Source: Trinickia symbiotica
Lineage (GTDB): Bacteria > Pseudomonadota > Gammaproteobacteria > Burkholderiales > Burkholderiaceae
NCBI RefSeq assembly: GCF_002934455.1
Contig: NZ_PTIR01000007.1
Span: 186,001 to 250,000, forward strand
DNA: 64,000 nucleotides
Reading direction: 5' to 3'
The position numbers and the translations under genes were made by a program. Under the pieces are notes generated by a model. It saw only the letters and a list, made by a program, of their open reading frames with translations, ran no database searches and was not told the DNA's origin. The number at the start of each line of letters is the position of its first letter. The stretch's first letter is position 1. This document shows, piece after piece, positions 16,544 through 31,689 of the stretch.

Positions 16544-17692
16544 TTACCACTCGGCGACGCTGCCGTCCTCGTGGCGCCAGACCGGATTGCGCCAGCGATG
16601 ACCGACCTTCGCCATTTCGCGCACCTTCGCTTCGTCGACTTCGATGCCGAGCCCCGGCCCTTGCGGGATCGATACAAAGCCGTCTTCGTATTTGAAGACC
16701 TCCGGGTTGCGGATGTAGTCGAGGAGGTCGTTGCCCTGGTTGTAGTGAATGCCGAGGCTTTGTTCCTGGATGAACGCGTTGTAGCTGACCGCGTCGATCT
16801 GCAGGCAAGCCGCGAGCGCGATCGGTCCGAGCGGGCAGTGCAGTGCGATGGCCACGTCATAGGCTTCGGCCATGGTCGCGATCTTGCGGCATTCGCTGAT
16901 GCCGCCGGCATGCGAGGCGTCGGGCTGAAGGATGTCGACGTAACCGCCCGCGAGGATGTTCTTGAAGTCCCAGCGCGAGTAGAGCCGCTCGCCGAGCGCG
17001 ATCGGCGTGTTGGTCTGGTTGACGATGTCGCGCAACGCTTCCGCGTTCTCGGAAAGCACCGGCTCTTCGATGAAGAGCAGCTTGTACGGATCGAGCTCTT
17101 TCGCGAGCACTTTCGCCATCGGCTTGTGAATGCGGCCGTGGAAATCCACGCCGATGCCGACGTGCGGGCCAACGGCCTCGCGCACGGCGGCGACGTTCGC
17201 GATGACGCGCTCGACTTTGTCGTAGGTATCGACGATCTGGACTTCCTCGGAGCCGTTCATCTTGAGCGCCTTGAAGCCGCGCTCGACGACCGCGCGCGCG
17301 TTGTTCGCGACGTCGCTCGGGCGGTCACCGCCGATCCATGAATAGACCTTGATCCGATCGCGAACCTGCCCGCCGAGCAGCGCGTGCACCGGTACGCCGT
17401 GGTGCTTGCCCTTGATATCCCATAGCGCCTGGTCGATGCCGGCGATCGCGCTCATCGAGATCGGACCGCCGCGATAGAAGCCGGCCCGGTACATCACCTG
17501 CCAGTGATCTTCGATGGCGAGCGGATCTTTGCCGATCAGATAGTCGGCGAGCTCTTGGACGGCGGTTTCGACCGTATGCGCGCGGCCCTCGACGACGGGC
17601 TCGCCCCAGCCGACGATGCCCTCGTCGGTCTCGATCTTGAGGAACAGCCAGCGCGGCGGGACGACGAAAGTTTCGAGCTTGGTGATCTTCAT
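16544..17692 (-). CDS. dgoD: D-galactonate dehydratase
   Basis: Enolase-superfamily enzyme that converts D-galactonate to 2-dehydro-3-deoxygalactonate. The 382-aa length equals E. coli DgoD. Sequence features include the capping domain start [19 protein letters not shown], the catalytic-base region ALKMNGSEE, metal ligands in [11 protein letters not shown] and [19 protein letters not shown], and the His general acid in [12 protein letters not shown]. The start at 17692 replaces a longer frame. A GntR regulator gene is divergent, and a perfect palindrome lies in the shared promoter region. The other dgo genes (kinase, aldolase, transporter) are not in the window, so the product must be processed elsewhere. 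Confidence 0.93.
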
Positions 17693-17813
17693 GGGGGAGC
17701 GTTCTCCTGTCTCCAACGATTGCTATGACGATTGGCGGTATCCCCGGTGCCGACTTTGCGATTGCTCAGAGGCGACTGCGGTTGGAGACGAATCGTACAC
17801 GAAATCGTTATGA

Positions 17814-17937: not shown

Positions 17938-18630
17938 TTGGGGAGAACGATCATTCAGCGCGATCTGCATGGGCGCGTCGCCTACCTGCTTGCGACCGGC
18001 ATTCTGCGCGGCGACTACGCACCGGCATCGACGCTGCCGCGCGAAGCCGAGTTGATGGAGACATTCGGCGTCAGCCGCACGGTGTTGCGCGAGGCGCTGC
18101 GCACGCTGACATCGAAGGGGCTTGTCGAGTCGCGGCCGAAGGTCGGCACGCGCGTGCGGCCGCGCCACGCCTGGAACCTGCTCGACGCGGACTTGCTCGA
18201 GTGGTACTCGCAGGTGGCGCCGCCGCTCGAATTTGCGCTCAAGCTGCAGGAGATGCGCGAGATGGTGGAACCTTACGCTGCCGCGCTTGCGGCGCGTGCG
18301 CAAACGGACGAGGCGATGGGCGCGCTCGCCGACGCGCACGCGGCGATGGCGGCGGCGCGCAGTATCGACGAGTGGGTGCGGGCGGATCTGCGCTTTCACC
18401 TCGGGATCCTGGCCGCCAGCCGCAACGAGCTTCTGATGCCGCTAGGCTCGGTCATCGAGCGCACCCTCGAGGCGCAGTTGCGGCTCAACGCGAAGCGCGC
18501 CGACGTCTTCAACGCGGCGCTCGGCGAGCACACGGCCGTTTTCGATGCGATCCGCGCGCGCAACGTGGAGGCGGCGCGCGCGGCGATGGCCGGGCTGCTC
18601 GGCATGACAAGGCGGCGCATCGAGGCGTGA
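17938..18630 (+). CDS. dgoR: GntR/FadR-type regulator of galactonate use (DgoR-like)
   Basis: Transcription factor with an N-terminal GntR winged helix (REAELMETFGVSRTVLREALRTL) and an all-helical FCD ligand domain (REMVEPYAAALAARAQ, ADLRFHLGILAASRNELL, LGEHTAVFDAIRARN). It is divergent from dgoD, so it most likely senses galactonate or its dehydration product. The only in-frame bacterial start codon before the conserved region is TTG at 17938 with a weak ribosome site; the frame closes at 17902. Related proteins usually have 15-20 more residues at the N-terminus, so the start may be rare or the 5' end shortened. Confidence 0.82.
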   Translation: MGRTIIQRDLHGRVAYLLATGILRGDYAPASTLPREAELMETFGVSRTVLREALRTLTSKGLVESRPKVGTRVRPRHAWNLLDADLLEWYSQVAPPLEFALKLQEMREMVEPYAAALAARAQTDEAMGALADAHAAMAAARSIDEWVRADLRFHLGILAASRNELLMPLGSVIERTLEAQLRLNAKRADVFNAALGEHTAVFDAIRARNVEAARAAMAGLLGMTRRRIEA

Positions 18631-19393: not shown

Positions 19394-19981
19394 GTGGCTT
19401 TAAGCCTCGACGATATTCGCGCCTTGTTCCAACAGCACGGCGACATTTCATACAGCGGCGAACCCGTCACGCAGCTTCAGCATGCGCTTCAGTGCGCCAC
19501 GTGCGCCGAGCGCGAGAACGCAGGCGACGCGCTCGTCGCGGCCGCTTTGCTGCACGATCTCGGTCATCTGCTGAACCTGCAGGGCGACACGCCCACCGCG
19601 CACGGCATCGACGACATGCACCAATACTTCGCGCTGCCGTTTCTGCGCCCCGTGTTGCCTGACAGCGTGCTCGAGCCGATCCGCCTCCATGTCGATGCAA
19701 AGCGCTATCTCTGCGCTGTCGACGACGGCTATTACGAGCGGCTCTCTGCTGACTCCAAGCGCAGCCTGGAACTACAGGGCGGCGTGTTCAGCCGAGAGGA
19801 CGCCGAGGCTTTTTCTCGCAAGCCGTATGCGTCCGACGCCGTACGTCTGCGGCAATGGGACGACGCCGCGAAGGACGCCTCGATCGTCACTCCTGACCTA
19901 GAGCATTTTCTCGCCGCGGTTACACGCGTCATGAAACCCGCGCACGGCGAACAAGCCTCGACCGGCGCGACCGCCGTGTGA
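19394..19981 (+). CDS. PhnZ-like HD-domain oxygenase (phosphonate degradation type)
   Basis: Mixed-valence diiron HD-domain oxygenase of the PhnZ type, which cleaves 2-amino-1-hydroxyethylphosphonate to glycine and phosphate after PhnY. The 195-aa protein has His30, His54-Asp55 (LLHDLGHLL) and His76, the metal-ligand order of the family. It also has Tyr20 and Glu23 with the same spacing (3 and 7) as the Tyr24/Glu27 pair before the first histidine of PhnZ. PhnY, PhnW and phosphonate transport genes are absent here, so the substrate could be another organophosphonate. Start is GTG at 19394. Confidence 0.78.
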   Translation: MALSLDDIRALFQQHGDISYSGEPVTQLQHALQCATCAERENAGDALVAAALLHDLGHLLNLQGDTPTAHGIDDMHQYFALPFLRPVLPDSVLEPIRLHVDAKRYLCAVDDGYYERLSADSKRSLELQGGVFSREDAEAFSRKPYASDAVRLRQWDDAAKDASIVTPDLEHFLAAVTRVMKPAHGEQASTGATAV

Positions 19982-20186: not shown

Positions 20187-21770
20187 ATGAACTACGTCAT
20201 CGGCATCGATATCGGCACGCAAAGCACGAAGGCGATACTCGCCGATGAGAACGGAACGATCATTGCGCAGCATGCGCAAAGCTACCGGCCCGATACGCCG
20301 CGGCCATTGTGGGCCGAGCAATGGCCGAGCGTATGGTTCGATGCCGTCGTGAACTGCATCGCGTCCTGCACGCGCGACGCGCGCGCCAAGGACGTCGAGG
20401 CCCGCGACATCAAGGCGCTCGCGATCAGCAGTCTCTACGGCGGCTCCGGCATTCCCGTCGACGACGAAATGCGTCCGCTTCACCCGTGCCTCATCTGGAT
20501 GGATCGGCGCGCGACAGCCGAAGTCGAATGGGTGCGCCGCAACGTCGACATGGAGCGGCTTCTCGCGATCACAGGCAATGGCGTCGATAGCTACTATGGC
20601 TTCACCAAGATGCTCTGGCTGCGCGAGCACGAGCCCGACGTCTGGGCCAAGACGCGCTATTTCCTGCCGCCGAACGCTTACGTCGCCTATCGGCTGACCG
20701 GCGAGGTAGCCGTCGACCACAGTTCAGCGGGCAACATCGGCGGCATCTATGACGTGGCCGCGCGCCGCTGGTCCGACGAAGCCCTCGCGATGCTCGGCAT
20801 TCCAGCCGCCATGCTGCCGCAGCGGCTCGTCGAGTCGTCTGAGGTCGTCGCCGGGCTGCTTCCGCAATGGGCGGACGAGCTCGGCCTCGAAGCAGGCATG
20901 CCGATCGTCGCGGGTGGCGTCGACGCGGCCATCGCGACGCTCGCCGCCGGCGTCTCCCGCGCCGGTCAACACGTTGCGATGATCGGCACAAGCATGTGTT
21001 GGGGCTATATCAACCAAAGCGTCGACGCGCGGCACGGGCTCGTCAGCATGCCGTACGTCGTCAACGGGCGCCGCGATCTCTACGTGTTTGGTGGCGCGAG
21101 CTGCGCGGGTGCCTGCGTGGCCTGGTACCGCGATCAGTTTTGCCAGGCCGAAGTCGAAGCGGCCAAGGCCGCCAAGGAGGCCGGCAGCCTCGCGCCCGGC
21201 GACGCTCATGTGCTGCTGGAGCGAGCCGCCGCCGAGGTGCCGGCGGGCTGCGGCGGCGTGGTGTTTCTGCCGTACTTGATGGGCGAGCGCAGCCCGATCT
21301 GGGATGCGCAGGCGAGCGGCGCGTTCGTCGGTCTCAATCTCGTCCATACACGCGCGCATCTCTATCGCGCCGTGCTGGAGGGCGTCGCCTTCGCGCTGCA
21401 GCACAATATCGAGGCAGGCCGGCGCGGCGCGGGCGCCCTCGACGAACGGCTCATCGTCGTCGGCGGCGCGGCCCACTCGGATCTTTGGATGCAAATCATC
21501 GCCGACGTGACGGGATACCCGGTCTTTACGATCGAGCAGGAAGTCGAGGCGGCGATGGGGGCGGCACTGTTGGCGGCGATCGGCTCAGGGCTCGCCGACG
21601 AGGTGGCGGCCACCCGCGGCTGGGTGACGCTGCGCGAGCATGCGCGCCCCGACCCTGCCCGCCGTGCGATCTACGCGCGGCAGTTCGAGGTCTACAAGGG
21701 GCTCTATCCCGCGTTGCAGGCCTCGATGCATCGATTGCGTACCGATGACGCCGACAAGACCGATCGGTAG
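20187..21770 (+). CDS. FGGY-family carbohydrate kinase
   Basis: ATP-dependent sugar kinase of the xylulokinase/ribulokinase/LsrK group. The 527-aa protein has the phosphate-binding motif GIDIGTQSTKAI (residues 5-16), MIGTSMCWGY, and a C-terminal FGGY domain with VVGGAAHSDLWMQIIADVTG. Start at 20187 is set by similarity and a CGGAGA ribosome site; the longer frame is not conserved. It is the first gene of the deoC-ALDH-mutarotase-kinase-ABC series, which already has a ribokinase-type enzyme, so the two kinases may act on different ring or acyclic sugars. Exact substrate cannot be read from sequence. Confidence 0.88.
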   Translation: MNYVIGIDIGTQSTKAILADENGTIIAQHAQSYRPDTPRPLWAEQWPSVWFDAVVNCIASCTRDARAKDVEARDIKALAISSLYGGSGIPVDDEMRPLHPCLIWMDRRATAEVEWVRRNVDMERLLAITGNGVDSYYGFTKMLWLREHEPDVWAKTRYFLPPNAYVAYRLTGEVAVDHSSAGNIGGIYDVAARRWSDEALAMLGIPAAMLPQRLVESSEVVAGLLPQWADELGLEAGMPIVAGGVDAAIATLAAGVSRAGQHVAMIGTSMCWGYINQSVDARHGLVSMPYVVNGRRDLYVFGGASCAGACVAWYRDQFCQAEVEAAKAAKEAGSLAPGDAHVLLERAAAEVPAGCGGVVFLPYLMGERSPIWDAQASGAFVGLNLVHTRAHLYRAVLEGVAFALQHNIEAGRRGAGALDERLIVVGGAAHSDLWMQIIADVTGYPVFTIEQEVEAAMGAALLAAIGSGLADEVAATRGWVTLREHARPDPARRAIYARQFEVYKGLYPALQASMHRLRTDDADKTDR

Positions 21771-21897: not shown

Positions 21898-22902
21898 ATG
21901 TCCGAAGCTCCCTCGAACTCCGTCGTCGCGCTGCGTCAGGCGCCGCTCGTGCACGCGGCGCGAAACGCGGGCGTTCCATTCGACGCCGGATGGTTCGATA
22001 CGTTGCGCGTCAACCATTCGGCCGTCGAGCGGCGCACCGCCACCCTCGGCACGCGCCGCTCGGTCAAGAAGGATGCGCAAGCGGCCTGGCTGCTGAAGGC
22101 CGTCACCTGCATCGATCTCACGACGCTGAACGGCGACGATACGGAAGGCCGCGTGCGCCGCTTGTGCGCGAAGGCGCGCCGGCCCGTTCGCGAAGACATT
22201 CTCGAGGCGCTAGGCATGGCCGGCGCGCCGATAGCAACGGGTGCGGTCTGCGTCTATCACCGGTTCGTCGCCGCGGCGGTCGATGCGCTCGCGGGCAGCG
22301 GCATTCCCGTGGCGGCCGTCTCGACCGGTTTCCCGGCCGGCCTGACGCCGCATCCCCTGAAGCTGAAGGAAATCGAAGCATCGGTGGCGGACGGCGCCGC
22401 GGAGATCGATATCGTCGTCACGCGCGAGCACATCCTGACCGGCAACTGGCGCGCGCTTTACGACGAGGTGCGCGATTTTCGCGCGGCTTGCGGCCCGGCG
22501 CACGTGAAAGCGATCCTCGCCACGGGCGACATTCGCACCCTTTCGAACGTGGCAAGAGCTTCGATGATCTGCATGATGGCCGGCGCCGACTTCATCAAAA
22601 CCTCGACGGGCAAAGAAGGCGTGAACGCGACGCTCGACGTGTCGCTCGTCATGGTGCGCGCGATTCGCGAGTATCGCGAGCGCACGGGCGCGATGGTCGG
22701 CTTCAAGCCGGCCGGCGGCGTCTCCACGGCGAAGGCCGCGCTTGCCTACCAGATCCTGATGAAAGAAGAGCTCGGCCGTCCGTGGCTCGAGCCGGCGCTC
22801 TTTCGCATCGGCGCCTCGAGCCTTTTGGCCGATATCGAACGGCAACTCGAGCATCACGTGAGCGGTCGTTACTCCGCTTTCCACCGACACCCCGCAGCCT
22901 GA
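21898..22902 (+). CDS. deoC: deoxyribose-phosphate aldolase
   Basis: Class I aldolase splitting 2-deoxyribose 5-phosphate into glyceraldehyde 3-phosphate and acetaldehyde. The 334-aa protein is longer than E. coli DeoC, mainly through an N-terminal extension of about 60 residues. Active-site residues are recognisable: Asp171 in AAEIDIVV, Lys204 in HVKAILATG, and Schiff-base Lys234 in FIKTSTGKEG. Start at 21898 (MSEAPSNSVVALRQAPL). It lies between an FGGY kinase and an aldehyde dehydrogenase that could remove the acetaldehyde, so the pathway step and its by-product handling are encoded together. Confidence 0.94.
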   Translation: MSEAPSNSVVALRQAPLVHAARNAGVPFDAGWFDTLRVNHSAVERRTATLGTRRSVKKDAQAAWLLKAVTCIDLTTLNGDDTEGRVRRLCAKARRPVREDILEALGMAGAPIATGAVCVYHRFVAAAVDALAGSGIPVAAVSTGFPAGLTPHPLKLKEIEASVADGAAEIDIVVTREHILTGNWRALYDEVRDFRAACGPAHVKAILATGDIRTLSNVARASMICMMAGADFIKTSTGKEGVNATLDVSLVMVRAIREYRERTGAMVGFKPAGGVSTAKAALAYQILMKEELGRPWLEPALFRIGASSLLADIERQLEHHVSGRYSAFHRHPAA

Positions 22903-22917
22903 CCGAGCCGATTTCCG

Positions 22918-25302
22918 ATGAGCGTAGCCGAGTATTTTTCTTCGATGGAGTACGGTCCCGCCCCTGAGGCCGACCAGCCTGTGCGCGAGTGGCTCGCGCG
23001 TCACGGCGAGGGATTCGGCCATTTCATCGGCGGCGCCTGGCGCGCGCCGGCCGCCGGGACGTTCTTCGACGTCATCGCGCCGGCCACGGGCGAAACGCTC
23101 GCGCGCGTCGCGCAGGGCGATGCCGCCGACGTCGAGGCGGCTGTCGCGGCGGCGCGCGCGGCGCAGCCAGCGTGGCATGCGCTTGGCGGCCCCGGGCGTG
23201 CGCGGCATCTTTACGCGCTAGCGCGGATGGTTCAGCGGCACAGCCGCCTCTTCGCGGTGCTCGAGGCACTCGACAATGGCAAGCCGATCCGCGAGACGCG
23301 CGATATCGACGTGCCGCTCGTCGCGCGTCACTTTCTTCACCACGCCGGGTGGGCTCAGCTGCAGGAGAGCGAATTTTCCGAATGGGCGCCGCTCGGCGTG
23401 ATCGGGCAGATCGTGCCGTGGAACTTCCCGCTGCTGATGCTGGCGTGGAAGATCGCACCGGCCATCGCGCTCGGCAATTGCGTCGTACTGAAGCCCGCCG
23501 AGTACACGCCGCTTACCGCGCTGCTCTTCGCCGAGCTCGCGCAGCGCGCGGGGTTGCCCGATGGCGTGCTCAACATCTTGACCGGCGACGGCCGGACCGG
23601 CGCGGCACTCGTCGATCACCGGGGCGTCGACAAGATCGCGTTCACGGGCTCGACGGAAGTCGGCCGGCAGATCCGCGCGGCGACGGCGGGATCGGGCAAG
23701 TCGCTCACGCTCGAGCTCGGCGGTAAGTCCCCTTTCATCGTCTTCGACGATGCGGATCTCGATTCGGCCGTCGAGGGCGTCGTCGACGCGATCTGGTTCA
23801 ACCAGGGGCAAGTCTGTTGCGCGGGCTCGCGGCTGCTCGTGCAGGAAGGCGTCGAAGCGCAATTCATCGAGAAGCTGAAGCGCCGCATGGCGACGCTGCG
23901 CGTCGGTCATTCGCTCGACAAGGGCATCGACATGGCGGCGATCGTCGACCCGGTGCAGCTCGCGCGCATCGAATCGCTCGTCGAGACGGGGCGGGCTGAA
24001 GGCTGCACGATCTGGCAACCGCGCGAAGTCGCGCTGCCCGAGCGCGGCTCGTTCTATCCGCCCACGCTCGTCACGGATGTGGCGCCGGCCTCGACGCTCG
24101 CACAAGAGGAAATCTTCGGACCGGTGCTCGCGGCGATGAGCTTTCGCACGCCCGAGGAGGCGGTCGCGCTCGCGAACAATACGCGCTATGGGCTCGCGGC
24201 CAGCATCTGGAGCGAGACGATCGGCCGCGCGCTCGACATTGCCCCCCGGCTCGCCTGCGGCGTGGTCTGGGTCAACGCGACGAATCTTTTCGATGCGGCG
24301 GTCGGGTTCGGCGGCTATCGCGAATCGGGCTACGGGCGCGAGGGCGGGCGTGAGGGCGTCTACGAATACCTGAAGCCGCAGGCATGGAGCAAGCTGCCGC
24401 TGCGTACGCCGAGGCGGGCCGATGAAGCCGGTCATGTCGACGACGGTTCGCGCATCGAGAGAATCGACAGGACTGCCAAGCTTTTCATCGGCGGCAAGCA
24501 GGTCCGGCCCGACAGCGGCTACTCGCGGGCCGTCCTTACGCCGGGCGGCGAGCTCGTCGGCGAAGTCGGCGACGGCAACCGCAAGGATGTGCGCGATGCC
24601 GTGGCCGCCGCGCGCGCGGCGGGCAAGTGGTCGCAGGCGAGCGCGCATGGTCGCGCGCAGGTACTCTACTACCTCGCCGAGAACCTTGCCGCGCGCGCCG
24701 ATGAATTCACTCGGCAGCTCGCGCGCCGCGCGGGCGTGGTCGCCCTCGACGCGCAACGCGAAGTCGATGCGGCGATCGGGCGGCTTTTCAGCTACGCGGC
24801 GTGGGCCGACAAGTTCGACGGCGCGGTGCACGCCCCGCCGCTGCGCGGCGTCGCTTTGGCGATGCACGAGCCCGTCGGCGTGATCGGCATCGCCTGTCCC
24901 GACGAAGCGCCGCTTCTCGCTTTCGTCTCGCTCGTTGCGCCCGCGCTTGCGCTAGGCAATCGTGTCGTGGTGTTGCCGAGCGAGGCTTGCCCGCTGATGG
25001 CGACCGACTTTTATCAAGTCGTTGAAACGTCGGATGTGCCGGCTGGGGCGCTCAATATCGTCACCGGCTCGCGGAGCGCTTTGTTGCCCGCGCTCGTGAA
25101 GCACGACGACGTCGACGCGGTATGGAGCTTCGGGCGTGCCGACGAGTCGACGCTCGTCGAGCGCGAGTCCGTCGGCAATTTGAAGCGGACTTTTGTCGAC
25201 TACGGACGGCAAATCGACTGGTTCGACCGCTCGAGCGAGGGCCTGCCGTTTTTACGTCAGGCTACCCAAATCAAGAACATTTGGATACCGTACGGCGATT
25301 GA
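22918..25302 (+). CDS. double-domain aldehyde dehydrogenase (ALDH16-type)
   Basis: NAD(P)-dependent aldehyde dehydrogenase of unusual length, 794 aa. Residues about 1-500 form a full ALDH with catalytic Glu266 (LELGGKS) and Cys300 (GQVCCAG). Residues about 500-794 form a second, partial ALDH-like domain (ALAMHEPVGVIGIACPDEAP) with no catalytic cysteine region. This is the ALDH16 layout, known in some bacteria and animals, in which the C-terminal domain is structural. It follows deoC by 15 bases, so acetaldehyde from the aldolase is the plausible substrate. Single frame, no frameshift. Confidence 0.9.
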   Translation: MSVAEYFSSMEYGPAPEADQPVREWLARHGEGFGHFIGGAWRAPAAGTFFDVIAPATGETLARVAQGDAADVEAAVAAARAAQPAWHALGGPGRARHLYALARMVQRHSRLFAVLEALDNGKPIRETRDIDVPLVARHFLHHAGWAQLQESEFSEWAPLGVIGQIVPWNFPLLMLAWKIAPAIALGNCVVLKPAEYTPLTALLFAELAQRAGLPDGVLNILTGDGRTGAALVDHRGVDKIAFTGSTEVGRQIRAATAGSGKSLTLELGGKSPFIVFDDADLDSAVEGVVDAIWFNQGQVCCAGSRLLVQEGVEAQFIEKLKRRMATLRVGHSLDKGIDMAAIVDPVQLARIESLVETGRAEGCTIWQPREVALPERGSFYPPTLVTDVAPASTLAQEEIFGPVLAAMSFRTPEEAVALANNTRYGLAASIWSETIGRALDIAPRLACGVVWVNATNLFDAAVGFGGYRESGYGREGGREGVYEYLKPQAWSKLPLRTPRRADEAGHVDDGSRIERIDRTAKLFIGGKQVRPDSGYSRAVLTPGGELVGEVGDGNRKDVRDAVAAARAAGKWSQASAHGRAQVLYYLAENLAARADEFTRQLARRAGVVALDAQREVDAAIGRLFSYAAWADKFDGAVHAPPLRGVALAMHEPVGVIGIACPDEAPLLAFVSLVAPALALGNRVVVLPSEACPLMATDFYQVVETSDVPAGALNIVTGSRSALLPALVKHDDVDAVWSFGRADESTLVERESVGNLKRTFVDYGRQIDWFDRSSEGLPFLRQATQIKNIWIPYGD

Positions 25303-25404: not shown

Positions 25405-25890
25405 ATGCTCAAACAACTCGACCCGCTGTTGAATCCCGACATCCTCTATGCGTTGAGCGCGATGGGACATGGCGACGAACTCGTCATCTGCGACGCGAAC
25501 TTCCCGGCCGATTCGGTCGCGCGCGCGACGACGCTCGGGCGGCTCCTGCGCATGGACGGCGCCGACTCCGCGCGTGCCGTGCGCGCCGTTCTTTCGCTGC
25601 TGCCGCTCGACACGTTCGTCGAAGCGCCCGCGATGCGCATGGAAGTGGTGGGCGACCCGAACGCGCTGCCCATCGTTCAGCGCGAGGCCCAGGCCGAAGT
25701 GGATGCCGCGGAGGGGCGCGCCGTGCCGTTCGCGCCGATCGAGCGCCACGCGTTCTATGCCCGTGCGCGCAAGGCCTATTGCGTGATCGCTACCGGCGAG
25801 CAGCGCGGCTATGGCTGCTTCATCTTCGCGAAGGGCGTGATTCTCGCGCCCGATGCGCCGAGCGGCGGCGCAACGGAGCGGGGACAATGA
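25405..25890 (+). CDS. FucU/RbsD-family sugar mutarotase
   Basis: Cytoplasmic enzyme interconverting sugar anomers, so that the imported ring form suits the kinase. The 161-aa protein opens with MLKQLDPLLNPDIL and AMGHGDELVICDANFP; the His in GHGDE and the Asp in DANFP match the FucU signature, closer to FucU than to RbsD. It ends with conserved YARARKAYCVIATGEQRGYGCFIFAKG. It overlaps the ribokinase-family gene by four bases. This is consistent with use of a pentose or deoxypentose. Confidence 0.9.
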   Translation: MLKQLDPLLNPDILYALSAMGHGDELVICDANFPADSVARATTLGRLLRMDGADSARAVRAVLSLLPLDTFVEAPAMRMEVVGDPNALPIVQREAQAEVDAAEGRAVPFAPIERHAFYARARKAYCVIATGEQRGYGCFIFAKGVILAPDAPSGGATERGQ

Positions 25891-26831
25891 GCGGGCGCGT
25901 CGTCATCCTCGGCATTTACGTCACGGATCTCGCGTTTCGCGCGAATCGCATGCCGCTCATCGGCGAGACGATCGCCGGTTCGGCTTTCGCGCTCGGCCCG
26001 GGCGGCAAGGGCTCCAATCAGGCCGTGGCGGCGGCGCGCGCCGGTGCCGAGGTCGTGTTCTGCACGCGGCTCGGCAACGACGCGTTCGGCGAAATCGCCC
26101 GCTCGACCTGGCAAGCCGAAGGCATCGTGGCGCGCGCGAAGGTCCTCGACGGTGTGGCGACGGGCGCCGCGCACATCTTTGTCGAGGAAGGAACCGGCCG
26201 CAACGCGATCATTGTTGCGGCTGGCGCGGCCGCGACGATGGACGCGAGCGACGCCGACGCGATCGAAGCCGACATCTCGGCCGCCCAGGTCTTCGTGACG
26301 CAGCTCGAGCAGCCGGTCGCGGCCGCACGGCGAGGTCTCGAGATCGCGCGCCGCCATGGTGTCGCCACGGTGCTGAACCCGGCGCCCGCGCTGCCGCTTC
26401 CCGACGACCTCTTTCCGCTTTGCGACTACATCACGCCGAACGAAACCGAGGCCGCCGCGCTGACGGGCATCGAAATCCGCGATGCAGACGATGCACGGCG
26501 CGCGGCCGACGTCCTGCTGGCGAAAGGCGCGGGCGCGGCGATCGTCACGCTCGGGGAGGCCGGCGCGCTACTGCATTCACGTTCGCAATCGGTGCTCGTG
26601 CCGGCGTTCCGGTGCGGTACGGTCGTCGAAACGGCAGGGGCCGGGGACGGGTTCACGGGCGGCTTCGCGGCGGCGCTTGCGCGCGGTGCGGAATCCCTCG
26701 AAGCGGTGCGCTTCGGCTGCGCGCTCGCCGGCATCTCAGTGACGCGCGCGGGCACCGCGCCTTCCATGCCGCGTTTGGCCGAAGTGCAAGCGTTGCTCGG
26801 CAACGCCGCGCCGATGCGTGAAAGCGCGTAA
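25887..26831 (+). CDS. ribokinase-family (PfkB) sugar kinase
   Basis: PfkB-type kinase, 314 aa, with the N-terminal glycine pair in FALGPGGKGSNQAVAAARAG and the C-terminal signature with catalytic Asp, VVETAGAGDGFTGGFAAAL. Phosphorylates ribose, deoxyribose or a related sugar at the 5-hydroxyl. Given deoC and a DeoR-like repressor in the same cluster, deoxyribokinase activity (to deoxyribose 5-phosphate) is the best guess. Start at 25887 overlaps the mutarotase stop, so the two are translationally coupled. Confidence 0.9.
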   Translation: MSGRVVILGIYVTDLAFRANRMPLIGETIAGSAFALGPGGKGSNQAVAAARAGAEVVFCTRLGNDAFGEIARSTWQAEGIVARAKVLDGVATGAAHIFVEEGTGRNAIIVAAGAAATMDASDADAIEADISAAQVFVTQLEQPVAAARRGLEIARRHGVATVLNPAPALPLPDDLFPLCDYITPNETEAAALTGIEIRDADDARRAADVLLAKGAGAAIVTLGEAGALLHSRSQSVLVPAFRCGTVVETAGAGDGFTGGFAAALARGAESLEAVRFGCALAGISVTRAGTAPSMPRLAEVQALLGNAAPMRESA

Positions 26832-26865: not shown

Positions 26866-27915
26866 ATGTGGTCCTCATTGACGCTTCGCCGATGGTTCGC
26901 CGATCGGCAATTGAACTTCCTCTTGACCGTCAACCTGGTCGTGGTGCTCGTCGCTGTCTGGTTTTCGCAAGGGCAGTTCGTCGGCATCGACAACCTGCAG
27001 TCGATGGGCTCTCAGCTGCCCGAAGTCGGCCTGCTGGCATTCGGCATCATGCTGTCGATGCTGTCGGGCAACGGCGGCATCGATTTGTCGGGCGTCGGGC
27101 TCGCGAACCTGTCGGGGATGGTCGCCGCGCTCGTCGTGCCGCGCTTCGTCAACGGCGACGACTCGCCGGTGCTCTATACGTCGCTTTTTTGCGTGATCGT
27201 CGTCTGTATGGGGCTCGCAGGCGGCTTTCTGAACGGCATGGTCATCGCGCGGCTGCGCCTCACGCCGATTCTCTGCACGCTCGGCACCCAGCTCGTCTTT
27301 ACGGGCTTCGCGGTCGCGCTCAGTAATGGCGCGTCCGTTCACATCGACTACATCGAGCCGCTTTCCGACATCGGCAACGGCACGTTCCTCCAGGTGCCGA
27401 TTTCGTTCGTCATCTACGTTGCCGTGGCGCTGCTGCTGGGCTGGCTGCTCGCGCGCACGCCGTTCGGCTTGCGGCTCTATCTGATGGGCACGAATCAGCG
27501 CGCGGCCTTCTATGCGGGCGTGCCCAATGCGCGGATGCTTGTCATCACCTACACGATCTGCGGCGTCCTCGCGTCGGTCGCCGGGCTCATCAGCTCGACC
27601 CATACGATGAGCGCGAAGTGGGACTACGGTAACTCGTATCTGCTGATCGCGATCCTGATCGCCGTCATGGGCGGCGTCAACCCGGCGGGCGGGTACGGAC
27701 GCGTGATCTGCGTTGTCTTCGCCGCGACCGTTCTGCAGTTTCTGTCGAGCCTTTTCAACCTCATGAATCTCTCGCAGTTCTTTCGCGATTGCACATGGGG
27801 GTTCCTGCTCCTGCTGTCGCTCGCGTTCGCGGGCGGCGAGCGTGTGCGCGCGATCTTCGGCGTCGGCGGCGTGAAGCCGCCTGCTGCCGCGGGCAAGCGC
27901 GAAGGCGGCGGTTAG
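26866..27915 (+). CDS. CUT2 sugar ABC transporter permease 1
   Basis: Inner-membrane permease of the RbsC/LsrC/D type, with about eight to ten hydrophobic helices in 349 aa. The family segments are LLAFGIMLSMLSGNGGIDLSGVG and ILIAVMGGVNPAGGYGRV (the EAA-like coupling loop region). A second, different permease occurs at 30649, so the two form a heterodimer around one ATPase. The C-terminus ends in a short charged tail. It follows the ribokinase gene by 34 bases. Confidence 0.9.
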   Translation: MWSSLTLRRWFADRQLNFLLTVNLVVVLVAVWFSQGQFVGIDNLQSMGSQLPEVGLLAFGIMLSMLSGNGGIDLSGVGLANLSGMVAALVVPRFVNGDDSPVLYTSLFCVIVVCMGLAGGFLNGMVIARLRLTPILCTLGTQLVFTGFAVALSNGASVHIDYIEPLSDIGNGTFLQVPISFVIYVAVALLLGWLLARTPFGLRLYLMGTNQRAAFYAGVPNARMLVITYTICGVLASVAGLISSTHTMSAKWDYGNSYLLIAILIAVMGGVNPAGGYGRVICVVFAATVLQFLSSLFNLMNLSQFFRDCTWGFLLLLSLAFAGGERVRAIFGVGGVKPPAAAGKREGGG

Positions 27916-28008: not shown

Positions 28009-29010
28009 ATGAAATTGAATCGATTGAGCCTTGCGCTCGCGGCGTGTGCATTGAGCGCGGGCATCGTCGTGGCCGCGCAGGCGGCGACGAACGAAACGAT
28101 CGTCACGGTGGTCAAGGTGACCGGTATCAGCTGGTTCAACCGGATGGACGAAGGCGTCAAGGAATTCGCGAAAGCGCAGGGCGTCAACGCTTACCAGACC
28201 GGGCCGGGCACGGCCGATGCCGCGCAGCAGTCGCAGATCATCCAGGATTTGATCGCGAAGAAGGTGACCGCGCTTGCCGTCGTCCCGTACGATCCGCCAA
28301 CGCTCGAGCCCGTCCTCAAGAAGGCGATGGACAAAGGCATCAAGGTCGTCACGCACGAGGCCGACAACGAAAAGAACACGATGGTCGACCTCGAGGCCTT
28401 CGATAACTCCGCATACGGTGCCGCGCTGAACGATCGGCTCGCCAGCTGCATGAAGAGCGAAGGCAAGTGGGCGACGCTCGTCGGCTCGCTCGGCAGCCGC
28501 TCGCAGGTGCAATGGGCGGACGGCGGCATCGACAACGCGAAGAAAAAGTACCCGAAGATGGAGCTCGTCGAGAAGAATCTCGAGACGAACAACGACGGCG
28601 AGCACGCCTATGTCGTCGCCAAGGAGGTGCTGCGCAAGCACCCGGACATCAAGGGTTTCCAGGGCTCGTCATCGCTCGATGTGCTCGGCATCGGCCGCGC
28701 CGTCGAGGAAGCCGGCTTGCAAGGCAAGGTCTGCGTCTATGGCACGGGCCTGCCGACCGAAGCGGCCAAGTATCTCGAGAGCGGTGCGATCAACGGCATC
28801 GCGTTCTGGGATCCGAAGCTTGCGGGCCTCGCGATGAACAAGATCGCGCAGATGCTGATCGACGGCAAGACCGTCAAGAACGGCGACAATCTCGGACTGC
28901 CTGGCTACGAGAGCGTGACCGTCAGCAAGGGACCCGGCAAGGGCATCATCGTACGCGGCAAGGGCTGGGTCAGCGTCGACAAGTCGAACTACAAGCAGTA
29001 CAACTTCTGA
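28009..29010 (+). CDS. periplasmic sugar-binding protein (LsrB/RhaS-like, Peripla_BP_4)
   Basis: Exported substrate-binding component of the CUT2 importer. The signal peptide MKLNRLSLALAACALSAGIVVAAQA ends at about residue 26. The body shows the two-lobed Peripla_BP_4 fold: TGISWFNRMDEGVKEFAKAQ, AVVPYDPPTLEPVLKKAM, KVVTHEAD, KGFQGSSSLDVLGIGRAVEE and the ending SNYKQYNF. It resembles AI-2/rhamnose-type binders (LsrB, RhaS). Ligand is undetermined; the surrounding enzymes favour a deoxypentose. Expected to be the most abundant product of the operon. Confidence 0.9.
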   Translation: MKLNRLSLALAACALSAGIVVAAQAATNETIVTVVKVTGISWFNRMDEGVKEFAKAQGVNAYQTGPGTADAAQQSQIIQDLIAKKVTALAVVPYDPPTLEPVLKKAMDKGIKVVTHEADNEKNTMVDLEAFDNSAYGAALNDRLASCMKSEGKWATLVGSLGSRSQVQWADGGIDNAKKKYPKMELVEKNLETNNDGEHAYVVAKEVLRKHPDIKGFQGSSSLDVLGIGRAVEEAGLQGKVCVYGTGLPTEAAKYLESGAINGIAFWDPKLAGLAMNKIAQMLIDGKTVKNGDNLGLPGYESVTVSKGPGKGIIVRGKGWVSVDKSNYKQYNF

Positions 29011-29104: not shown

Positions 29105-30652
29105 ATGAACGGGGACAAGGCTTCTGAGCCGCTGCTGCAGGTGGTCGGCATCCACAAGCGCTTCACGGGCGTGCATGCGCTGCGCGGCGTCACGCTCGCG
29201 TTCGAGCGAGGCCAGATCTATCACCTGCTCGGCGAAAACGGCTGCGGCAAGAGCACGCTGATCAAGATCATTTCGGGTGCGCAGCCGCCCGATGAAGGCG
29301 AGCTCGTGATCGAGGGCAGGCATTATGCGCGGCTGACGCCGCTGCAGGCGTTGGATGCCGGTATCGAGACCGTCTATCAGGATCTTTCGCTGCTATGGAA
29401 CATGAGCGTGACCGAAAACGTCGCGCTCACGCCCGAGCTCGCCGAGCATGGCGGACGCCTCGCGCGGACGCTCGATCGCCGCGTCCTCGCGGCGACCGCC
29501 GCGAAGGCGCTCGAATCGGTAGGACTGCCGAGCGATGCCGACTTCCAGGCGACGCTGATCGAGCAGCTGCCGCTTGCCACGCGCCAGCTCGTCGCCATCG
29601 CGCGTGCGATCGCGAGCGAGGCGAAGTTCGTCATCATGGATGAGCCGACGACGTCGCTCACGCAAAAGGAAGTCGCGAATCTGATCGAGGTGCTCGGCGC
29701 GCTGCGCGCGCAGGGCGTGACGGTGCTGTTCGTCAGCCACAAGCTCGACGAGTGCTATGCGATCGGCGGCGAGGTCGTGGTGTTGCGCGACGGTCAGAAG
29801 GTCGCGCAGGGGCCGATTACCGACTACACGAAAGCGCAGCTTTCCGAGCTGATGACGGGGCGGCAGCTATCACAGGAGCGCTATCGCGAAGCGGCTTCGC
29901 AAAGCGAGGTCGTCCTCGATGTGCGCGACCTTGCGCGCCGCGGGCAATTCCGCGACATCTCGTTCGCCTTGCATCGCGGTGAGATTCTCGGCGTGACGGG
30001 TCTGCTCGACTCCGGCCGCAACGAGCTCGCCCGCGCACTGGCGGGCGTGGCGCCTGCCGATGCGGGGCGCATTACGCTCGAGGGAAAGCCCGTGACGCTG
30101 GCGACGCCCGCCGACGCGAAGCGGCACCGGATCGGCTACGTGCCCGAGGATCGCTTGAGCGAAGGCCTTTTTCTCGATAAATCGATTCGCGAGAACGTCA
30201 TCACGGCGATGATTTCGAGCCTGCGTGACCGCTTCGGCCAGATCGATCGCAAGCGCTCGCGCGCGCTCGCCGAGCGGACGGTGAAGGAGCTGCAGATCGC
30301 GACGCCCGACGTCGATCGCGCCGTGCAGTCGCTCTCGGGCGGCAACCAGCAGCGCGTGCTGATCGGGCGCTGGCTCGCGATCGATCCGCATGTGCTGATC
30401 CTGCACGGGCCGACCGTCGGCGTCGACGTGGGATCGAAAGACATCATTTATCGCATCGTGCAGCGGCTCTCGCAGCAAGGGATCGGCATCTTGCTGATCA
30501 GCGACGACCTGCCCGAGCTTTTGCAGAACTGCGATCGGATTCTGATGATGAAGAAAGGCCGCGTCGTCGGCGAGTATGGCGCCGAAGGGCTCACGGAGGC
30601 CGCGTTGTACCGTGCTCTCCTCTCGGACGCACCTCTCTCGGAACCAGCATGA
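29105..30652 (+). CDS. CUT2 sugar ABC transporter ATPase (two ABC domains)
   Basis: Fused double ATPase of the RbsA/LsrA type, 515 aa from the ATG at 29105; a TTG 30 bases earlier is also in frame. The first half has Walker A GENGCGKST and a degenerate signature (LATRQLVAIARAI). The second half has DSGRNEL in place of Walker A and the signature SGGNQQRVLIGRWL, as is normal for this family. It energises the importer with the permeases at 26866 and 30649, and overlaps the latter by four bases. Confidence 0.92.
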   Translation: MNGDKASEPLLQVVGIHKRFTGVHALRGVTLAFERGQIYHLLGENGCGKSTLIKIISGAQPPDEGELVIEGRHYARLTPLQALDAGIETVYQDLSLLWNMSVTENVALTPELAEHGGRLARTLDRRVLAATAAKALESVGLPSDADFQATLIEQLPLATRQLVAIARAIASEAKFVIMDEPTTSLTQKEVANLIEVLGALRAQGVTVLFVSHKLDECYAIGGEVVVLRDGQKVAQGPITDYTKAQLSELMTGRQLSQERYREAASQSEVVLDVRDLARRGQFRDISFALHRGEILGVTGLLDSGRNELARALAGVAPADAGRITLEGKPVTLATPADAKRHRIGYVPEDRLSEGLFLDKSIRENVITAMISSLRDRFGQIDRKRSRALAERTVKELQIATPDVDRAVQSLSGGNQQRVLIGRWLAIDPHVLILHGPTVGVDVGSKDIIYRIVQRLSQQGIGILLISDDLPELLQNCDRILMMKKGRVVGEYGAEGLTEAALYRALLSDAPLSEPA

Positions 30653-31689
30653 TGAATCAATCGACGATGAGCACCCCCAAAGCCATGGATATCGCGCGAG
30701 AAGGTCGGCCGCCCGCCTGGCGCGCGAAGCTCGCACGCAATCCGGAATGGTTCACGGTCGCGCTGATCGTGCTGACGTCGATCGTCGTCGCGGTACTCAA
30801 TCCGCGCTTTCTGCAGTGGGCGACGCTCTTCGACATGCTGCATTCGGCCACGACGACATCGCTTTTCGCGCTCGGCACGCTCGTCGTGCTGGCATCGGGC
30901 GGCATCGATGTGTCCTTCACCGCGATCGGCGCGCTGACGATGTATTCGATCACGAAGGCCGTGCTCGTCTGGTGGCCCGATGCGCCGTTCGCGCTGATTC
31001 TTTGCACGGGCGCATTAGGCGGCGTACTGCTCGGCGTCGTCAACGGCTTGCTCGTGCATCGGCTCAAGGCGCCTTCGCTGATCGTGACGATCGGCACGCA
31101 ATATCTCTATCGCGGCATTTTGCTGACGTTCGTCGGGACGACGTTCTTCATGAACATCCCGCACAGCATGGATCGCTTCGGCCGAATTCCGCTCTTTGCC
31201 TATCAGACTGCCGACGGACTCCACGCGGTCCTGCCCGTTTCCGTGATCGCGCTCCTCGTCGCGGCGGTCCTCACTTGGTGGCTGCTGAACCGGACAATGA
31301 TGGGGCGCGCCGTCTATGCGATGGGCGGCAGTCTCGCGATCGCCGAGCGGCTCGGGTACAACCTGCGCGCCGTCCATCTCTTCGTGTTCGGCTATACGGG
31401 CCTGCTGGCCGGCATCGCGGGCATCATCCACGTGTCGAACGGGCGGATCGCGAATCCATTCGATCTCGTCGGCTCCGAGCTCGACGTGATCGCGGCCGTC
31501 ATTCTCGGAGGCGCGCGCATTACGGGCGGGACCGGCACGGTGGTGGGCACGCTGCTCGGCGTCGTGCTCGTCACGCTCATCAACAGCGTGCTGATTCTCG
31601 TCGGTGTGCCGAGCACCTGGCAAAAGGTCATCATCGGCGCGTTCATCCTGGTCGCGGGTACGCTCTTCGCGTTGCGCCGGCGCGGCTGA
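30649..31689 (+). CDS. CUT2 sugar ABC transporter permease 2
   Basis: Second inner-membrane permease of the importer, 346 aa, with about nine hydrophobic helices and family segments ALGTLVVLASGGIDVSFTAIG and AVILGGARITGGTGTVVGTL. It starts at 30649 inside the end of the ATPase gene, suggesting translational coupling. It ends 45 bases before the convergent deoR stop and is the last gene of the sugar cluster. Confidence 0.92.
   Translation: MMNQSTMSTPKAMDIAREGRPPAWRAKLARNPEWFTVALIVLTSIVVAVLNPRFLQWATLFDMLHSATTTSLFALGTLVVLASGGIDVSFTAIGALTMYSITKAVLVWWPDAPFALILCTGALGGVLLGVVNGLLVHRLKAPSLIVTIGTQYLYRGILLTFVGTTFFMNIPHSMDRFGRIPLFAYQTADGLHAVLPVSVIALLVAAVLTWWLLNRTMMGRAVYAMGGSLAIAERLGYNLRAVHLFVFGYTGLLAGIAGIIHVSNGRIANPFDLVGSELDVIAAVILGGARITGGTGTVVGTLLGVVLVTLINSVLILVGVPSTWQKVIIGAFILVAGTLFALRRRG

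Follow-up and report, generated by a model that had tools for sequence, protein, structure and literature searches.

Bacterial ALDH16 is consistently encoded beside a long-type DeoC aldolase and occurs in a fused and a two-gene architecture

Introduction

On which aldehyde does a dehydrogenase of the ALDH16 family act, and what is the purpose of the second, incomplete aldehyde dehydrogenase (ALDH) domain that it carries? The question is raised by a 794-residue protein encoded in a 64,000-nucleotide stretch of the Trinickia symbiotica genome (RefSeq GCF_002934455.1, contig NZ_PTIR01000007.1, positions 186,001 to 250,000; this whole stretch is hereafter the window, and coordinates are counted from its first base). 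Its gene follows deoC, which encodes 2-deoxyribose-5-phosphate aldolase (DERA), and a sequence-only reading had described it as an ALDH16-type double dehydrogenase inside a deoxyribose cluster. The gene belongs to a family already known; a consistent partnership with DeoC, together with a split architecture, gives that family a testable function.

DERA cleaves 2-deoxyribose 5-phosphate to acetaldehyde and glyceraldehyde 3-phosphate. In E. coli the pathway enzymes are encoded by deoC, deoA and deoB of the deo operon, enzyme types shared with the ALDH16 loci described below, but the acetaldehyde goes to other enzymes.

LsALDH16, from Loktanella sp., forms a dimer that mimics the ALDH tetramer (PMC8160307); the available text of that paper gives neither gene context nor physiological substrate for it, unlike the deoC-linked enzyme of the window. 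The catalytic triad is missing from human ALDH16A1, which is termed a pseudoenzyme, whereas bacterial ALDH16 keeps its catalytic residues; the substrate of the human protein is listed as unknown, and reports link it to maspardin, HPRT1 and gout (PMC10650815). Animal ALDH16A1 resembles the bacterial proteins in family name and double-ALDH arrangement. For a family with an orphan, gout-associated human member (PMC10650815), a consistent bacterial partnership with DeoC offers a concrete reaction to assay.

Results

Anatomy of the window protein

The gene and its two halves are as follows.

22918..25302 (+): ALDH16, 794 aa, ATG start; catalytic domain at about residues 36-489, pseudo-ALDH domain at about residues 515-794
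22918..24402 (+): catalytic ALDH half, residues 1-495, with Asn169, Lys192, Glu266, Cys300 and Glu398
24415..25299 (+): pseudo-ALDH half at the C-terminus, residues 500-794, lacking the Cys and Lys found in active ALDHs

The protein contains two stretches matching the Pfam family Aldedh; in a search of the organism's own genome the first covered positions 1-459 of the 461-position model and the second just 14-237. In the translation Glu266 lies in ELGG and Cys300 in GQVCC. The sequence-only reading of one complete ALDH, with both residues where it had placed them, is thereby borne out, as is its claim that the second ALDH-like domain is incomplete and silent, the catalytic Cys and Lys being gone. 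The active-site Asn, Lys, Glu and Cys of NAD-dependent hydrolytic ALDHs are all there. Two features served to define ALDH16, namely two ALDH domains per chain with the second incomplete, and end-to-end homology to a solved bacterial ALDH16 (6MVR); both were found. Residues 1-793 align with PDB 6MVR/6MVU, entitled 'bacterial ALDH16' (E 8.5e-292), and LsALDH16 (PDB 6MVR, 6MVS, 6MVT, 6MVU) shares with the window protein this full-length match, the two-domain plan, the catalytic Cys and the dead second domain. Judged by its sequence, then, the 794-residue protein is a true bacterial ALDH16, with all catalytic residues followed by an incomplete, dead second ALDH domain.

Asn169, Lys192, Glu266, Cys300 and Glu398 are invariant in all 119 full-length fused proteins (118 loci plus the window; six broken, cut or split loci were excluded). 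Among curated models the best-scoring are non-acylating ALDHs, and none listed reaches its own cut-off; the score of 464.1 bits against the model of the ExaC acetaldehyde dehydrogenase (NF050026) falls below the cut-off of 900, which leaves untouched any claim that the two enzymes work alike.

Linkage to deoC across Pseudomonadota

When the whole protein served as query across the class, ordinary ALDHs dominated the results, and among the matches listed both domains were covered only in the window's own protein and in one further genome, G093; later searches were therefore made with the C-terminal half. By rank, the positives were 9 of 11 genomes in the genus, 74 of 299 in the family (strong matches), 11 of 250 in the order and 44 of 398 in the phylum. 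The arrangement had been called rare, which does not agree with the family and phylum counts, and ALDH16 as a rare curiosity can be discarded.

Neighbourhoods were compiled for 124 ALDH16 loci of Pseudomonadota: 74 from the family (window excluded), 49 others from the phylum and order samples, and that of G093 from the class-wide search; a 501-base ALDH16 fragment in G1204 was excluded. An upstream deoC on the same strand is present at 120 of the 124. This survey had been set beforehand as a test that might refute the link, and no refutation came of it. Two exceptions (L120, L171) start at contig ends, and the other two (L192, L231) are 5'-truncated remnants lacking deoC together with the first 99 and 478 residues of ALDH16, respectively. 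In these Burkholderiaceae remnants deoC and the front of ALDH16 were lost jointly, as if the unit decays as one.

In the window the deoC frame stops at 22902, 15 bases ahead of the ALDH16 ATG, the spacing given by the sequence-only reading. At 117 measurable loci the gap has a median of 24 bases; it is 50 or less in 94 and exceeds 300 in eight (maximum 1482), so that at a few loci the genes lie close by without abutting. Long open frames (1000-1165 aa) had suggested deoC-ALDH16 fusions; these were rejected, as the deoC stop precedes the ALDH16 start in 117/117 measured loci.

When open reading frames of at least 90 aa were clustered across the 50 loci from outside the family, deoC alone proved to be a widely conserved neighbour (48/50). 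The next family occurs at 13/50 and consists, in our reading, of generic ABC (ATP-binding cassette) ATPases, while a thymidine-phosphorylase cluster, of which a representative was confirmed, lies beside ALDH16 at 9/50. One Burkholderiaceae genome carries a second deoC-ALDH16 pair, L233 (G431:C100:96290-97123), which is divergent, at 54-55% in the C-terminal half.

The two-gene form and co-occurrence in other phyla

A collection of contigs was scanned with the C-terminal half as query, using an alignment led by the divergent G093. The scan returned at least 590 stretches, at least 582 of them encoding a relative, from which the 80 best were taken. At 68 of these 80 loci the two halves are encoded apart, a catalytic ALDH gene (about 490 aa) standing first and a dead-half gene (about 290-330 aa) after it, and deoC lies ahead of the pair in 60 of the 63 cases with readable upstream DNA. 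The catalytic residues are invariant in all 63 split catalytic ALDHs aligned (the window being the 64th row). By record, the split loci belong to Bacteroidota, Verrucomicrobiota, Balneolota, Lentisphaerota, Spirochaetota, Fidelibacterota, Planctomycetota and, within Pseudomonadota, Woeseiaceae; single assignments may be wrong, because most are metagenome-assembled genomes. The fused form was found in none of these best 80 of at least 582 relatives, partly because the query was led by G093, and the zero is not a frequency; for the same reason, and as a best-scoring selection, the 80 were rejected as a representative sample of the family. The ALDH16 family thus has two architectures, one fused and one of two genes in several other phyla.

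We searched 198 Bacteroidota genomes with cut-offs fixed in advance of every search. Of these, 42 have the dead half, 41 the catalytic ALDH and 43 the long DeoC, and no genome with the catalytic ALDH lacks either of the other two (41 of 41; Fisher p <1e-39, a value that ignores the kinship of the genomes). By the thresholds we applied, the genes are adjacent in 36 of the 41, in order with a wider gap in two, and on three contigs in three. In G1369 (G1369:C42:4351-5082) and G1452 (G1452:C1:1931340-1932170, one of the 41) the dead half lies inside frames of 1061 and 895 aa, respectively. These look like fused ALDH16 in Bacteroidota, with DeoC on the same contig, and were possibly acquired laterally. 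A further genome, G1453, has DeoC only.

The trees come from fast IQ-TREE runs, with SH-aLRT as the sole support measure. One of them holds 58 selected catalytic domains; against 20 other ALDHs, the fused (18) and split (20) sequences group in a single clade (98), within which fused and split forms are each monophyletic (99 and 99) and sister to one another. Distances among DeoC, ALDH and dead half correlate at 48 fused loci (Spearman 0.67-0.77) and at 60 split loci (0.58-0.66), as is expected of genes inherited together, although shared ancestry alone also gives such a correlation.

At 12 scan loci the dead half stands alone. Six of these lie at contig edges, at L277 the upstream DNA is too short for deoC to be judged, and five have room for both partners (L255, L293, L304, L311, L313). 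Searching the genomes of these five, of L277 and of L286 located a split-type catalytic ALDH elsewhere (66-77% identical) in six of the seven; in that of L304 it is broken into two frames, and for L293, L286 and L311 the retrieved flank of this ALDH contains deoC. Tree placement puts six lone dead halves with the split form (100), among its sequences, with weak inner branches. It appears as if these copies moved away from the operon and were kept. Separately, in two Verrucomicrobiota the lone pseudo-ALDH stands directly ahead of deoB (L311:7842-10043 and L313:7968-11405), and at L313 a pyrimidine-nucleoside phosphorylase gene also lies downstream.

The dead half

We compared 199 C-terminal domains, 119 from fused proteins and 80 from the scan, some of the latter cut. 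None carries Cys at the nucleophile position (column of Cys300) or Lys at the cofactor position (column of Lys192), while Asn persists at the oxyanion position in 11 and Glu at the base position in four. In a 56-sequence tree, built without three long-branched ALDHs, all dead domains (11 from fused and 13 from split forms) fall in one clade (100); the remaining sequences are 15 catalytic domains of ALDH16 and 17 other ALDHs. The free-standing dead-half sequence scores 205.5 bits against ALDH16 and 112.1 against other ALDHs. A predicted model of the free-standing Fluviicola protein (L264; mean pLDDT 93.1) has three ALDH16 structures as its best PDB matches (E 4.5e-26, TM 0.88 on the query), with ordinary ALDHs behind them (E 1.4e-22, TM 0.79). 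The free-standing pseudo-ALDH and the C-terminal half of ALDH16 are homologous and form one clade.

The predicted L264 model comprises the cofactor-binding fold and two long strands, 136-151 and 273-281, with the catalytic domain absent. We read these as putative oligomerisation strands, and the dead half is probably a conserved partner subunit. As a gene in its own right, inherited with a separate catalytic ALDH and DeoC, it offers a natural experiment on the job of a pseudo-ALDH subunit.

The linked DeoC

The DeoC of the window scores 141.2 bits on TIGR00126, over the cut-off of 117.3. Asp171, Lys234 and Lys270, read as the Asp and the two Lys (Schiff-base and second) of E. coli DERA, are invariant in 179/179 linked DeoCs (two cut sequences excluded). 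Among 62 family genomes, a close relative of this long DeoC (E ≤1e-60) occurs in 15, exactly the 15 with ALDH16. The window's genome also encodes a second, E. coli-type DeoC of 265 aa (L337, G000:C3:295328-295963) scoring 202.1 bits on the deoC model, whose gene, in our reading, is probably preceded by a nucleoside-transporter-like gene and followed by a deoA-like gene. Human DERA is probably closer to the long bacterial DeoC than to that of E. coli.

The surrounding gene cluster

The genes flanking ALDH16 in the window are listed below.

20187..21770 (+): FGGY carbohydrate kinase, upstream of deoC (PF00370/PF02782)
21898..22902 (+): deoC, long type, 334 aa, 2-deoxyribose-5-phosphate aldolase (TIGR00126, over cut-off)
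25405..25890 (+): FucU/RbsD-type sugar mutarotase (PF05025, 133.7 bits)
25887..26831 (+): PfkB kinase, ribokinase type, proposed deoxyribokinase (TIGR02152, 302 bits; cut-off 299.65)
26866..27915 (+): sugar ABC permease (PF02653)
28009..29010 (+): sugar-binding periplasmic protein (PF13407)
29105..30652 (+): sugar ABC ATPase (PF00005, two stretches)
30649..31689 (+): second sugar ABC permease (PF02653)

With its two permeases, ATPase and binding protein, the importer can be classed from its gene content as ribose-type. The FGGY kinase matches a xylulokinase model under its cut-off. At ≥60% identity, the PfkB kinase recurs in 76 of the 124 loci, comprising 73/74 in the family and 3/50 elsewhere, and the FGGY kinase near the deoC-ALDH16 pair in five of the 124; a sugar kinase and importer next to ALDH16 are a family trait. 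The label of a deoxyribose cluster is a reading drawn from four kinds of gene: deoC, a kinase of ribokinase type, a protein of the FucU/RbsD group and the ABC importer. The kinase accompanies only three of 50 loci outside the family.

Discussion

Proposed function

We consider it probable that ALDH16 serves the DeoC step as its dedicated acetaldehyde dehydrogenase, producing acetate with NAD+, and that its second domain is a fixed partner subunit. Free 2-deoxyribose would enter through the ABC importer; the FucU protein would mutarotate it and the PfkB kinase, which may prefer deoxyribose, would phosphorylate it. After cleavage by DeoC, the first ALDH16 domain would oxidise the acetaldehyde to acetate by the ordinary Cys/Glu mechanism, and a toxic product would thereby be kept from accumulating. 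The second domain, a dead ALDH apparently reduced to the cofactor-binding fold and oligomerisation strands, would act as the partner subunit, fused in the window protein and supplied as a separate gene product in several other phyla. Since two LsALDH16 chains imitate a four-subunit ALDH (PMC8160307), the split form would be expected as two catalytic and two dead subunits. Complex formation, the activity and its product are our inference from these patterns. Acetaldehyde is the best-supported candidate substrate because the conserved link between ALDH16 and deoC came out strongly.

Several observations weigh against this proposal. Linkage between genes shows partnership and not substrate. The sugar kinase and importer are mostly absent near ALDH16 outside the family, and the PfkB kinase is barely over the ribokinase cut-off, so another 2-deoxy sugar is possible. 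No ALDH16-like frame lies beside the second deoC within the 3.6 kb examined; DeoC as such therefore does not need ALDH16, which accompanies one kind of DeoC. That kind, as judged from pairwise identities and bit scores, appears not to be sharply delimited: the window DeoC is 43-47% identical to split-locus DeoCs and 42% to the second deoC product, although in bits the former lie at 229-252 and the latter at 159. No nearby deoC was found at three of the 63 split pairs (L265, L297 and L306, the last from Planctomycetota), the rest of whose genomes was not searched, and the genome of L313 has no close catalytic partner for its dead half (best match 45%).

The most serious competitor, which we nonetheless think unlikely, is that the linked long DeoC uses a different phosphorylated 2-deoxy sugar and that ALDH16 oxidises some other aldehyde or glyceraldehyde derivatives. 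In its favour, the linked DeoC and the genome's canonical DeoC are dissimilar (42% identity; 139.7 and 202.1 bits, respectively, on the deoC model), and the cluster kinases are only ribokinase- and xylulokinase-like. Yet any 2-deoxyaldose 5-phosphate cleaved by DERA yields acetaldehyde by established chemistry, the Asp and both Lys of DERA are kept in all 179 linked DeoCs, and deoA- and deoB-type neighbours occur at some loci. We regard it as highly improbable that ALDH16 is instead a CoA-acylating acetaldehyde dehydrogenase forming acetyl-CoA. CoA is used by ALDH6, and the sequence-only reading had allowed for it as acceptor, but the top models for the window protein are non-acylating, the CoA-acylating MMSDH model gives 296.7 of 448.5 bits (although no listed ALDH model reaches its cut-off), and the water-activating Glu is invariant in 119/119. 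This Glu makes acylation unlikely because ALDH6A1, with its slightly different mechanism, has Asn there (PMC10650815), even though ALDH16 occupies the same logical position as the AldDH of deoC-bearing SPU microcompartment loci (PMC4207490). Equally small, in our estimate, is the chance that a general detoxification ALDH has merely been carried along with deoC on mobile or laterally moved DNA. ALDH16 copies do occur often on large plasmids, with 155 plasmid records, 78 from Sinorhizobium, and S. meliloti 1021 bearing the C-terminal half on pSymB, but few other neighbours are kept outside the family, and the co-occurrence holds in the three of 41 Bacteroidota genomes in which the genes lie on three contigs.

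A further question concerns the second domain only and is compatible with the dehydrogenase function proposed above. We give an even chance to the pseudo-domain just stabilising the ALDH by filling subunit contacts, with no role towards DeoC. The tetramer-like pairing of two LsALDH16 chains (PMC8160307) and the retention, in the free-standing model, of long strands that may serve oligomerisation are in accordance with this; the two free-standing copies ahead of deoB, and lone copies that, where tested, look moved and not lost, speak against it, though neither point is strong. One guess is that the dead subunit also binds DeoC, which would explain its retention. More tentatively than the stabilising role, we suggest that the pseudo-ALDH could be the coupling subunit of a DeoC-ALDH-pseudoALDH assembly that passes acetaldehyde from aldolase to dehydrogenase, fused in most Pseudomonadota seen and, by family name, in animals. 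Were this so, human ALDH16A1, its catalysis lost and its plan kept, would serve DERA and the breakdown of deoxynucleosides as a scaffold or regulator, with consequences for how the links to urate and HPRT1 reported for it are understood.

Relation to known systems

Paraburkholderia bryophila and Burkholderia phytofirmans grow on deoxyribose via deoxyribose kinase and DeoC, as mutant phenotypes indicate (PMC6365646); the same enzyme types are thus at work in relatives of the window organism. The term 'aldehyde dehydrogenase' is absent from the main text of that paper (matched at word starts; figures not covered). In SPU microcompartment loci a DeoC-like aldolase and an AldDH are proposed to degrade deoxyribose phosphate to acetyl-CoA (PMC4207490). 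Aldolase and dehydrogenase share one locus there as they do at ALDH16 loci, but the SPU systems are encapsulated and the available text does not term their AldDH ALDH16. The literature covered yielded no ALDH16-DeoC tie and no split ALDH16, with the term pair ALDH16 and deoC not searched and subscription papers mostly uncovered; the available portions of PMC9007349 and PMC4334477 contain nothing on the pair.

Genes upstream of the cluster

A 195-aa frame at 19394-19981 (+) of the window shows an HD-like motif by eye and matches no Pfam family at E 0.001. Further upstream lie genes for a galactonate dehydratase (16547-17716, -; NF010624, 746.6 bits) and a GntR/FCD regulator (17938-18630, +), each recurring near ALDH16 at ≥60% identity in one of the 124 other loci (L162).

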